Below are positions 48,601 through 54,600 of a stretch of DNA of 64,000 nucleotides, one piece after another (position 1 is the stretch's first letter; each line of letters starts with the position of its first letter). The notes beneath the pieces are model-generated. The model worked only from the letters and a program-made list of their open reading frames with translations, was not told the DNA's origin and did not search any database. The stretch is taken from assembly GCF_027942865.1 (NCBI RefSeq), contig NC_134517.1:10456275-10520274 (forward strand), written 5' to 3'. A program made the position numbers and the translations under genes. Source of the DNA: Odontesthes bonariensis (lineage: Eukaryota; Chordata; Actinopteri; Atheriniformes; Atherinopsidae).

Positions 48601-51600
48601 CCCTTCTTCTATAATTGTGCTTATTTACCTATCTGCATCATAGTGCTGAAGATTTCCGTAGTTCGAAGGGAATGCCAGGACAGTGGTGTAATGGTTGAAC
48701 CCAAAATAATCATATGTTCCCTTAATTCTCCTAATCTCCTCCGGAGTAAACTCAGGGAGTCTGCAGAATTTAAAGTGAAACGTTGTTTAAGAAGACATAA
48801 AATACAAAGCAGGACTGGCTATAACCAGTTGGTTTTAAAGGGAATTACACACTGAAGACATACAGACAATCAAAAGCCATTGTTAACTTTTAATATTACT
48901 TTTTAAGGTTTTTATGTTGGTTTTTGTAATACCTGGATTTTGGCAAACCAGCAGCAAAACTGCGCTCCCGAATGGTTGTCTTCATCACATCGTTGTAGTC
49001 ACCATTAAATATGGGATGGGCAAACCAGCCAATGTAGAACTGCACGGAGTGAGCAGTGGTTAGTGAAAACAGTGGAACAGGTTTTATGTTAAAGATGAGA
49101 GGATTTGGCATACCTGCACCACACGTCGTGCAGCATCAATGTCCTCCTGTTTATGGGGGTTTCTGGGTTCTGACCAGTCAGAATTGATAGTGATTGAGAT
49201 TTTTCCTTTCTGCTCGGCCCGGTACTTATCATTGTAGAGGTGCCAGGCCTCAGCATGTGCTTTAATAAGGTTGTGACCGACAATGTAGGGTAAAGTGCCT
49301 GGCCGTAAACTGATCCCTGGAAACAAACATAGTGTAAAAGTGAGCATTACACGGTATTCTTTTTAATGAAGTGCTTTCTAAACAAAATTGACAAAAATGA
49401 TAAATTCCGGTTCTAAGTACTTAACATTACGGCAACTTCAGATCCTTATCACAACATAACACTTAAATACCTGGAGCAGCTGCTCCATAGCCATGGCCCA
49501 CCATTGCTATATTATACGGCTCATTAATTGTTATCCAAAGTTTCACTTTGTGGCCAAGATGGCTAAAGATGAGATCAGCATAATCCCTGAATTTGTCCAC
49601 AATTGTGTCATTCTCCCATCCTCCAATTTCCTGCAGAGCTTGTGGAAGGTCCCAGTGATAGAGAGTGATCTGACACAAAGGGAAAACATTTGCTGACATA
49701 ACTTGCAAAATTTCAATTTTAAGTATTATTTGAGAAGCTATAAAGAATGACTCTTACTTGAGGCTGGATGTTTGCAGCAATCAGTGCATTCACCAGTCTG
49801 TGATAGTAGCTGAGTCCAGCCTCATTAATGTGACTGGTGGTGCCGTCAGGGAGCACCCTCGTCCAGGATATAGAGAAACGATAATGGTTCACTTTAAGTT
49901 GCTTCAGTATAGCAACATCCTCCTCTACTTTATTATAACTGTCGCAGGCTATGTCCCCATTATCAGCATTGAATATTTTGAGAGGAGTGTGAGCAAATTT
50001 GTCCCAGATGCTGAGACCTTTTCCATCTGCTCTCCATCCCCCTTCAATCTTAAAATAGATATAAACAAATGCAAATGAAAACAGCGTCTATCTGAAATGA
50101 CCTGGCATAGACTTGATAGAGGGGTTTCAGCTAAACAGTTACCTGGTACGATGCTGTTGCAGTACTCCAAATGAAATCCTTTTGGAAATGTCCATAGAGC
50201 ATCTTCTCATCGTCTGGTGTGGGGAAACCATTATCCTTCATGACCTGATAGTAGAAATGGGCTGAATACTTGAGTGTTCTTGGCCGATTTGGGTTAGTGA
50301 AGTCCACATGGTGCAGCCCAAACCTAACTTTGTATCCATTTAACCACTCAAAAGAATCCATTAGCGATGTCGCCATGTAGCCTTTTACCCTCACTCCATC
50401 AAGTTCATGAGCTATTTTTAAACACACAAACACAATTTATTGGTCAAGCCTAAAAACAATGACAAGAACGTGAAACTCTAATATCTCAATTTTGTGTATA
50501 TCAGGGTACCTTTTAGAGCCTCATTAATATAGGTCTTGTAAAAAAATACCCTGGGAGTGTCTTCCCAAGTAGTTTTTGCCTCTGTAGCCACTCCATTCTC
50601 AGTGATGTAAATGTCTAGATCTCCGTACTCCTCCTTTATCCAGTTGAGGAGTCTTCTTATGCCCCACGATACAGCTCTCTGGTTTTTGATGGCTGTAACT
50701 GGTGAATCATGTTCCTCTGCTTCTGAAAAGTCCCAGTCATGTTGATAGGACTCGGGAAAAAGCAGGCCCGTAATATGACTAACTATCTTTGTGGTATGGT
50801 GATTGAGACAGAACACATCAGCAGTTCCCTTGATGAAGTTCTTTTCCTCTTCGGTGAATGAAGGGAGTCTTGAGTTTGACTGACCTTGAAGTTCACATTT
50901 TTGGCGAACTTGCCATTTCATTGCATCAGGGTAGTCACCGTTCTTGAAAATAGGGTGTGCAAACCAACCCAGTTGGAACTGCAGTGCACGGTCTGCAGCC
51001 ACAATGTCACGGGGAACACTGACATCTTTAGGTTCAGCCCAGTCAGCATTGAGAGCAATGGATACTAGACCGCCTTGGGAGTTGCGGTAATTGTCATCAT
51101 AAGTATGGTATGCCTTGGCGTGAGCTTTAATTAGGTTGTGTGCAACTTTATAGGGCGCAGTTCCTGGATCCCTAACATTTGGCGGGATCTGTCCAAGTCC
51201 ATATCCTAACCATGCAATAGTTTGTGGCTGATTGAAAGTAATCCAGAATTTTACTCTGTTGCCAAATGTGGCAAAACAGAAATCACAAAAGTCATTAAAG
51301 ATGTCAATCATGTCTACATTGTCCCAGCCACCGAAGTCTTGTAAAGCTTGAGGAAGGTCCCAGTGATAAAGTGTCACCATGGGGGTGATATTATGTGCCA
51401 AGAGGCCATCAATAAGTTTGTTATAATAGTCAACACCTTTCTGGTTCAGGGAGGTACGCCTACCATCAGGAAAGATTCTGGACCAAGACAAAGAGAATCT
51501 ATATGACTTTACCCTCAGCGCTCGCAACATATAGAAATCTTCCTCGAGTCTGTTGTAACTGTCACAAGCTACATTTCCAGTAGCATTTTCAGGAATATTG

Positions 51601-54600
51601 CCAGGTTTCTGAGTGAATGTATCCCAGACACTAGGTCCCTTTCCATCAGCATTCCAGCCACCTTCAATCTGGTAAGACGAGGATGAAACTCCCCAGCTGA
51701 AGTCTTGTGGAAAAGTACCATAGTGATACATTTGTCTCTGAAATTTTGACTGACGGGAGAATTTTTCCCAGATAACCTTTGATTTAGATGGAACCTCTGA
51801 GGGTGACAGAGTGATGGAAGGGCGAGTAAATGCTATTTCTAAGCCTTTAAAACCAGTGTCTTTGCTTGATCCAAAACCATTTTGCTTGATAACCTGAGAG
51901 AAGAAGTATGCAGATTGCTTTGGGGTTCTCGGTCTACCTCCATCTTCAAAGTTAACGTGATGAAGACCAAATCTTTGACTGTAGCCTTGTTTTCCTTCAA
52001 ATCCATCCATGAGTGACTGCACCGTGAATCTCCGCACATCCACTCTGTCCATGGTTATGGCTAGAAAATGGATTCACAAAAAAAAATGCATCAAATTTTG
52101 AATTCTTTACACGCTTCTTATCAAAGAAATGAACACTGACCTTTCAGGGCTTCATTGATGTAACCCCTCATGTACTCCACTCTGCTGGTGTCATTGAGGG
52201 TGTCCCCACTGTACTCTGTTGGCATCCCATTCCCAGTTATGTAGATAGGCACTTTCGTAGAATTTAAGTATTCATTTGAAATGTAGTTTAGAAGTGACCG
52301 AAGTCCCCAAGGCACAGAATAAATCCAGTCGGAGGCTGTAGAAGGCCAGGTGGGGTCCACATGGGCCTGGAAGTCTCCCACTTCCACAGGACCAGGGTTG
52401 CACCCACCTTTACTGCTGTTAACTAAACGGGAAGTATAATGGTTTAAACCAAAAAAGTCAGCAGTTCCTTGTATCCTCTTGCTCTCCTCAGGAGTAAAAG
52501 CTGGAAGTACTGCTGGTGCAGAGGGACACTCGTTTTTTTTCTGTTCAATCTGAGTTTTAAGTGCAGCAGGATAATCTCCATTCACAAATATAGGATGAGC
52601 AAACCATCCCAACATAAACTGCAGATAGCGATCTGCAGCTGCCACATCATCAGAGTTGGATTTGTTCATGGGCTCAGCCCAGTCAGAGTTTAATGCAATG
52701 CCCACTTTCCCCCCCTGTGTGTTCCTGTACTTGTCATTGTAGACATGCCAAGCCTCTGCATGGGACTTAAGTATATTGTGAGTGACCTGAAAAGGTATAA
52801 ACAAATGATAAGTTAAATGCCCCCAGAGCAATGATTAAATGCTGTTTAATTATTAGCCGATGATAACACGACTTTCACCTGATAGGAAGCAACCGCATAA
52901 TCCTTTACTCCAGGGGGATGCTCCCCAGTGCCATACCCAGCATGGCTCACAACCCAGGGGCTACTGAACGTGTTCCAGGTCTTGACCCTGTCTCCAAACC
53001 TGGAGAAGCAGAAGTCTGCATAGTCCTTGAAAGCTTCAACAATTGCAGGGTTGGTCCATCCACCATTGCCTTGGAGGGCCTGGGGCAGATCCCAGTGGTA
53101 GAGAGTAGCAACAGGTTGTATGTCAGATTCAATCAGTGCATTGATCAGTTTATCATAGTAGAGAGCCCCTTTCTCTGATTGGCTTCCTCTGTAGCCTGTG
53201 GGGAAAATACGGGCCCAGGAGATGGAAAACTGGTACGTTTTGACTTGTAGACCTCGCAGGAGGTAAAGATCATATACCACCTTATTATAACTATCACAGG
53301 CTAGGTCAGCTGTCTGATTTGCAAAGGCTAGGCCATCATGACCAAAGCGGTCCCAAATTGTCTCTCCTTTCCCACCCTCTAACCAGCCGCCTTCAACCTT
53401 GAAAGACTCTGTAGAGGTAGCCCACTGGAAGTCAGAAGGGAATGATTCAGCAAGGACAAGGTCTCGTTCTTCTGTGGTTTGGGCCTCAAACTTCTGCCAG
53501 ATCTTCTGATAACTATTGCTGAAGCCTGCCATTCTTGTGATAACTGGAATATCAAGACTTTGGAAAAACAGAACAATGAATAGAATTTAATAGAAAACTG
53601 GCTATACAAATAAGTCGGTGACATAAACTCATACCTGACTGGAGCATCCTGCATGTCCAGCTTGCCTAACACGTCCTTCATGTCACATCCCATGATATTC
53701 AAGTCGTTGTTTCTTAGGACTATATGTTCAAGAAAAAATAACAGTTTGTTATTGACAGTAATGAAACAGGGAACATGCAAAAAACAGAATCCCTCTATTG
53801 TAAACTATTCAAACAATAACTGCTATATTTCTAATCAAAGTTATGCATGAGTTCAGTATTAAGATCTGGTCCCTTATATCTGCCCTGATTCTCTGGTGTT
53901 TGGGCTTTTATCCTCTTGCACTCCATCACGTCCATTTCCCCACACTGTTAAACTTACTTCAACCTTAATTCTACCATGGAAAAATGGTTTTCTTACCTTC
54001 TTCTTTTTGAGAAAATCACTCTAATTTCTTTACAAATTTCCTTCTTTAAAACTGTCTTCTGTCATTCCTCCTTTCTCCCGGCTTGACTTTTGCCAAAACA
54101 GCCTCCCACCCATTGCTTTTCCTGATATCTGATAAGCCTTATCAGAAGTATCTGCCACCTCGCAACTCTTCTTATCCAACACCAGCTTCAAGACTCTTAT
54201 TCAGCACCTTTCCTTTTGTTATGACACTGCTTCACTGAGATAATAAGTCAGAGTCTAATTACCGAAAAACTGCTTTAAATTGATCTCTCGTACAATAATT
54301 AAATTTGTTCCATCCTTTTAATCGATCTCTCCTCGTTGAAATACTATCATTGCTTTGTTAAGATCTAACTTAAACTATGTACAAAACATCCACCTCGATC
54401 TTTTAGATTTTAAATTTACCTTGTCACAGTTCAGCTGTAATGATTATTTAAACAAGACATATTTACTGGGGGACAGTCTGTAAAAAAACAATAATCCAAT
54501 AATTATTTCCAATAATTTATTTCGTAAAAACTTTACTGGCTCATATAAAAAAAAAAAAAATTACACTGGTAATATACAAACACTTCCAGACATTCTAACT

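Follow-up and report, generated by a model that had tools for sequence, protein, structure and literature searches.

The lactase-phlorizin hydrolase (LPH)-like gene, lct, found in a 64,000-nucleotide stretch of the Odontesthes bonariensis genome (the window, which is contig 17, 10456275-10520274, of the same assembly in which other lct copies were sought) encodes a protein of tandem glycoside hydrolase family 1 (GH1) units, the third of which, domain III, carries glutamine (Gln1036) at the acid/base position and three further substitutions in its pocket. We regard it as fairly probable that domain III is a pseudoenzyme, or nearly so, which would perform no useful hydrolysis of ordinary β-glucosides and would be kept because domain IV needs domain III for folding and for reaching the cell surface. 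To judge from its residues, domain III has probably lost hydrolysis, while its service as a folding or transport partner is a role that it may have by analogy with human and molluscan proteins.

GH1 tandem proteins with disarmed domains are already known, and what is new here is that the disarmed domain is one that serves mammals as an active digestive site, handling phlorizin, flavonoid glucosides, and glycosylceramides. A literature search, largely without subscription papers, turned up no fish LPH described as having a domain III without the acid/base residue. If one working site per lactase proved true of this fish and its relatives, plant glucosides and glucosylceramides would be digested differently, and the protein would offer a natural test of LPH domain III as a folding partner as much as an enzyme. 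The protein also calls for caution in gene naming, as similarity alone is no ground for calling such genes ‘phlorizin hydrolase.’

Catalytic and Pocket Residues of Domain III

An earlier note on this DNA had drawn attention to the motif ITFNQPQ, with a CAG codon for glutamine, in the part of exon 8 that encodes domain III. The motif is present at 51222-51242 on the minus strand, within a few bases of the coordinates first given, and constitutes the acid/base motif of the domain. The nucleophile motif, ITENG, is intact at 50592-50606, as the note had also described, and provides Glu1246. Human domain III carries Glu at the acid/base position.

Domain III was compared with GH1 relatives drawn from a bacterial and archaeal genome collection. 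The panel comprised 76 loci, all with bacterial titles, of which 75 were used and one was excluded for an open frame of under 400 amino acids. The search patterns resembled SYQIEGGW- and ACDSYN and left the catalytic motifs untouched, the acid/base motif not being included; they favor Gln or Lys at the SYQ site, whose conservation is thus partly built in. The acid/base position was Glu in 75/75 relatives, where domain III has Gln1036. A pocket Tyr kept in all 75 is replaced by His1180, the Trp of the AWSL motif, kept in 74 of 75 with a gap in the remaining one, by Thr1290, and a Trp found in 73 of 75 by Asn1218. Thr1290 is encoded by ACA, which matches TGG at none of its bases, and a single recent step is therefore unlikely. 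In an alignment to the solved structure 8in1, with positions counted by hand, Q1036, H1180, and N1218 match E675, Y819, and W857 of the sea hare β-glucosidase akuBGL, which are described in the available text on that enzyme as substrate contacts in docking (PMC10619976).

Across the 56 sites that were near-invariant (≥95% of the 75 loci), domain III kept 49 and departed at seven (Gln1036, Pro1051, Ser1092, His1180, Asn1218, Thr1290, and Ser1295). Domain II departed at 14, including both catalytic Glu residues, and domain IV at three, none of them within the pocket panel; both full-length lct genes of this genome retain an intact domain IV pocket. Within domain III, departures affected 4/13 pocket sites vs. 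3/43 other sites (Fisher p 0.043), a weak enrichment for which the list of pocket sites was drawn up after the panel had been seen. Branch lengths from the common node were 0.93 for domain III, 0.78 for domain IV, and 0.99 for domain II, with mean identities to the 75 bacterial loci of 37.3, 37.6, and 36.0%, respectively, which speaks against any strong acceleration of domain III taken as a whole. The analysis adds to the earlier note three further pocket substitutions in domain III, along with the finding that in the duplicate, described below, the nucleophile end of the domain and the domain IV acid/base exon are missing.

Copies of lct and Probable Gene Conversion

A second full-length lct gene lies ~213 kb from the window gene on the same contig and encodes 1,894 residues without internal stops; a single donor, the one following exon 8, is GC rather than GT. 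The five key positions of its domain III are occupied as in the window gene, by Gln (Gln1035), His, Asn, Glu, and Thr. The two genes are near identical over codons ~300-1200, where dS was below 0.11 in 14 of 15 windows of the codon scan and 0.175 in the other, and are diverged elsewhere, with dS of 0.2-0.9 in 14/17 windows. The region of codons ~300-1200, which spans domain II and the greater part of domain III, is likely a gene-conversion tract between the two genes, most of domains I and IV having diverged. Asn1218 and Thr1290 fall outside the tract, in windows with dS of 0.43 and 0.21, and the corresponding losses therefore predate that divergence.

A truncated copy within the window also carries ITFNQPQ, at 37876-37896, with the CAG codon at 37882-37884. 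It lacks a stretch equivalent to 49425-50810, and hence both the nucleophile-bearing end of domain III and the domain IV exon that encodes the acid/base residue. Its identity to the window gene is 84% in the exon 1 fragment and 97.6% in exon 8, and its difference is 3.1% in part of intron 15 and 0.8% in the region of exons 12-15; this uneven divergence suggests that gene conversion may have acted there too. Being recent, as the identity in exon 8 indicates, it lends only partly independent support for the glutamine.

Fragments of a third copy occur upstream of the main gene, with an exon 4-like stretch at 61980-62130 and an exon 3-like stretch at 63160-63280 (both minus strand) and a full-length exon 1-like stretch at 7883-8506 of a separately fetched stretch (L088). 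They could be a relic, or they could supply lct with an alternative 5' end. A weak exon 1-like fragment with 67% identity is located at 43909-44051 in the opposite orientation (plus strand), and a reverse-transcriptase (RVT_1) reading frame occupies 41373-42932 on the minus strand, between the window gene and the truncated copy.

Selective Constraint on Domain III

All dN/dS comparisons were made between lct copies within this one genome and are no substitute for a comparison across fish. Between the window gene and the truncated copy, 322 domain III codons showed 14 synonymous and four nonsynonymous changes, giving a dN/dS of 0.072 (bootstrap 0.013-0.176; Fisher test, 2.9e-7). The value for the whole shared exon 8 was 0.109 and that for the domain II tail 0.224 (bootstrap up to 0.96), while domain IV exons 12-16 had seven synonymous and three nonsynonymous changes in 300 codons. 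Between the window gene and the second gene, the 133 codons of domain III that lie outside the conversion tract gave 0.413 (0.235-0.748), with a bootstrap share of 0.002 at or above 1, vs. 0.252 (0.181-0.342) for 411 codons of domain IV (1340-1750). In the same comparison, dN/dS was 0.417 for domain I, 0.149 for domain II, 0.264 for all of domain IV, and 0.356 for domain IV exon 16 alone (range up to 1.18). For all of domain III it was 0.338 (0.215-0.517), made up of 0.194 (0.063-0.498) over codons 851-1130 and 0.389 over codons 1131-1338.

The earlier note had named a dN/dS near 1 across domain III as the sign of simple decay, and had called for a comparison with domain IV. No such value was seen, dN/dS being below 1 in both comparisons, which disfavors simple decay. 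Outside the tract, the value is higher in domain III than in domain IV, and the intervals overlap. Domain III is under constraint, perhaps weaker than that on domain IV, and shows two features of a GH1 pseudoenzyme domain, an incomplete catalytic pair and a constrained sequence.

A Proposed Folding Role of Domain III and Alternative Explanations

A retaining glucosidase that lacks its acid/base residue has difficulty in protonating ordinary leaving groups and in activating water, as follows from established GH1 chemistry. Replacement of this Glu by Gln would be expected to have both effects in domain III, and, with the neighboring Tyr and Trp gone, the sugar is probably held less well. Domain IV would then be the only fully armed site and would rely on domain III to fold and reach the surface. 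The available text on human LPH reports that domain III is transport-competent alone, that domain IV is not without domain III, and that G1363S, a mutation in domain III, causes the whole precursor to misfold (PMC6412902). Molluscan GH1 domains that lack catalytic residues and stand beside active ones have likewise been suggested, in the sections available, to be folding aids (PMC10619976; PMC5840672).

Several points weigh against this proposal. Domain III keeps more than domain II does, including the nucleophile, Gln889, His991, Asn1035, Glu1297, and Trp1298, and, given these residues, some binding or activity may remain. The Gln and His of the second gene fall inside the conversion tract, and their shared state is therefore not independent support. 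The dN/dS of non-converted domain III exceeds that of domain IV, with the overlap noted above. In the accessible parts of two reports, the chaperone role in mammals is assigned to the first half of LPH and not to domain III (PMC5840672), and classical myrosinases with Gln at the acid/base site are described as active (PMC8836197).

The last point bears on the suggestion of the earlier note that domain III might have either lost its activity or changed its substrate class in the manner of plant myrosinases. The replacement of His1180, Asn1218, and Thr1290 as well as Gln1036 makes loss of hydrolysis likelier than a myrosinase-like change, as the sugar-binding surroundings are altered too. We consider it improbable that domain III is still a myrosinase-like enzyme, which would act on glycosides with good leaving groups or draw on an external base, for example ascorbate. 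In plant myrosinases the matching sugar-binding residues are preserved, and both these enzymes and the rice Gln proteins are single-domain. Domain III does combine Gln at the acid/base position with a nucleophile Glu, the pair that marks the myrosinase type, under selection below neutral, and this Gln is shared with classical myrosinases (PMC8836197) and with rice Os4bglu14 and Os9bglu33 (PMC1781453), so far as the available text of those reports goes. However, the three additional substitutions affect residues kept in 75 (His1180), 73 (Asn1218), and 74 (Thr1290) of the 75 bacterial relatives, and the rice authors, in the portion accessible, thought that the two Gln proteins may be without hydrolase activity (PMC1781453). 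Membership in the myrosinase group was rejected on the pocket test, namely His1180 for Tyr and Thr1290 for Trp.

A selected change of function would account for the retained residues in another way. The pocket formed by Gln1036, His1180, Asn1218, and Thr1290 around the kept nucleophile may, as a minor possibility, have been remodeled long ago under selection for a new task common to the two paralogues, for instance the binding of glycans or the transfer of glycosyl groups. That domain III now binds glycans or other ligands, or works as a transglycosidase, after a change like that of the klothos, whose GH1 domains became receptors, is likewise unlikely: Glu1246, Gln889, His991, Asn1035, Glu1297, and Trp1298 are kept around the changed pocket in two genes, klothos are among the best solved relatives, and this genome's klotho-like genes encode a first domain whose acid/base position is Asn, but a ligand is hypothetical, a conserved pocket Trp is gone, and a scaffold role needs fewer assumptions. 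Unconstrained decay of domain III in this lineage would be compatible with four pocket substitutions and with the somewhat higher dN/dS of domain III outside the tract relative to domain IV. Its probability is low, with dN/dS below 1 in both comparisons, the frame open in two full-length genes, and 49/56 near-invariant sites kept. The chance of a sequencing or assembly error, for which no supporting points were found, is negligible; as the earlier note had argued from two copies, the Gln is no slip in one of them, and a slip was rejected because the same CAG is common to the window gene, the truncated copy, and the second full-length gene, which differ mutually at other sites.

Comparison with Known Systems

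Mammalian LPH resembles the fish protein in its tandem GH1 units, C-terminal anchor, and fully armed domain IV; in the fish, domain II is without both catalytic Glu residues. It differs in that human domain III is described, in the text available, as an active phlorizin-hydrolase site (PMC6412902), whereas here the acid/base residue and three pocket residues are replaced. The human catalytic residues named there are Glu1273 and Glu1749 (PMC6412902). Sea hare akuBGL (8in1) is the best-scoring solved relative. Its first GH1 domain, GH1D1, has lost the acid/base residue, keeps the nucleophile, is inactive when expressed, and is proposed to act as a chaperone of the active domain, according to the sections accessible (PMC10619976). 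Unlike the fish protein, akuBGL has two GH1 domains, and its acid/base residue has been replaced by Asp rather than Gln. The plant myrosinases, together with Os4bglu14 and Os9bglu33, share Gln at the acid/base position; fish domain III differs from myrosinases in having lost further pocket residues.

The klothos are hormone co-receptors. Klotho and beta-klotho also have tandem GH1 domains with incomplete catalytic sites, but the domains number two and the acid/base position of the first is Asn, not Gln. A partially available sea bass study lists lactase-phlorizin hydrolase among digestion genes that are higher in the anterior and middle than in the posterior intestine (PMC4997091). This listing indicates that such genes are expressed in the fish gut and has no bearing on the genes described here.

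Gene Structure and Other Features

The window gene was assembled by hand splicing; all 16 introns are GT-AG and the frame contains no internal stops (Table 1). The three exons scanned with Pfam (1, 7, and 8) all match Glyco_hydro_1, and domains II, III, and IV align over their length. Read by eye, the protein has the layout expected of LCT, four tandem GH1 units, of which the first (domain I) is partial, between a hydrophobic N-terminus and a C-terminal hydrophobic stretch of 17 residues, the putative anchor of the 1,898-residue model. Both catalytic Glu residues of domain IV are present (Glu1512 and Glu1721, along with Tyr1656 and Trp1765); domain III does not have both as in mammals, having Gln1036 in the window gene and Gln1035 in the second gene.

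Table 1. Positions of lct features in the window.
Feature	Position	Strand	Remarks
Lactase-phlorizin-hydrolase-like gene	45649..57152	-	Complete, 17 exons, 1,898 aa; hand splicing
Truncated lct copy	33899..38959	-	Exon 1 fragment, exon 8 without 3' end, exons 12-16, part of 17
Exons 6-7	52141..53557	-	Bulk of domain II; Ser516 and Gly728 in place of the two catalytic Glu
Exon 8	50510..52060	-	Domain II tail and most of domain III (Gln1036, His1180, Asn1218, nucleophile Glu1246)
Exon 9	50143..50411	-	Domain III end (Thr1290, Glu1297, Trp1298) and domain IV start
Gln1036 codon	51228..51230	-	CAG; GH1 acid/base position, domain III
His1180 codon	50796..50798	-	CAT; Tyr in GH1 relatives
Glu1246	50598..50600	-	Domain III nucleophile, kept
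Thr1290 codon	50368..50370	-	ACA; Trp in GH1 relatives; 3/3 bases differ from TGG
Glu1512	49520..49522	-	Domain IV acid/base, intact
Glu1721	48327..48329	-	Domain IV nucleophile, intact

Other GH1 genes of this genome were located by a search that scores the best candidates, and their motifs were surveyed in the fetched stretches, which do not make up a full census. The acid/base motifs are IDNP and then LNEP in a klotho-like gene (L089), MHNP and then INEP in a beta-klotho-like gene (L090), and INEP in a single-domain gene (L091). Two further genes (L092 and L093), perhaps of the lactase-like (LCTL) kind, have FNNP, in which Asn takes the place of the acid/base residue; in the L092 stretch, one match to GH1 crosses stops, which may be an intron. 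Within this set of motifs, lct domain III alone shows Gln at the acid/base position, and does so in the window gene, the truncated copy, and the second gene. For each of L089, L090, and L091 the best solved chain is 8in1; klotho ranks second with L089, and beta-klotho with L090. Ranked by total score, the two-domain klothos are next for L091, whose best single-domain chain is the cytosolic beta-glucosidase 2jfe. Viral contigs searched with exon 8 gave no matches. Elsewhere in the window, a connexin reading frame spans 30359-31576 on the plus strand, with Cx46 and Cx50 as its best solved relatives.

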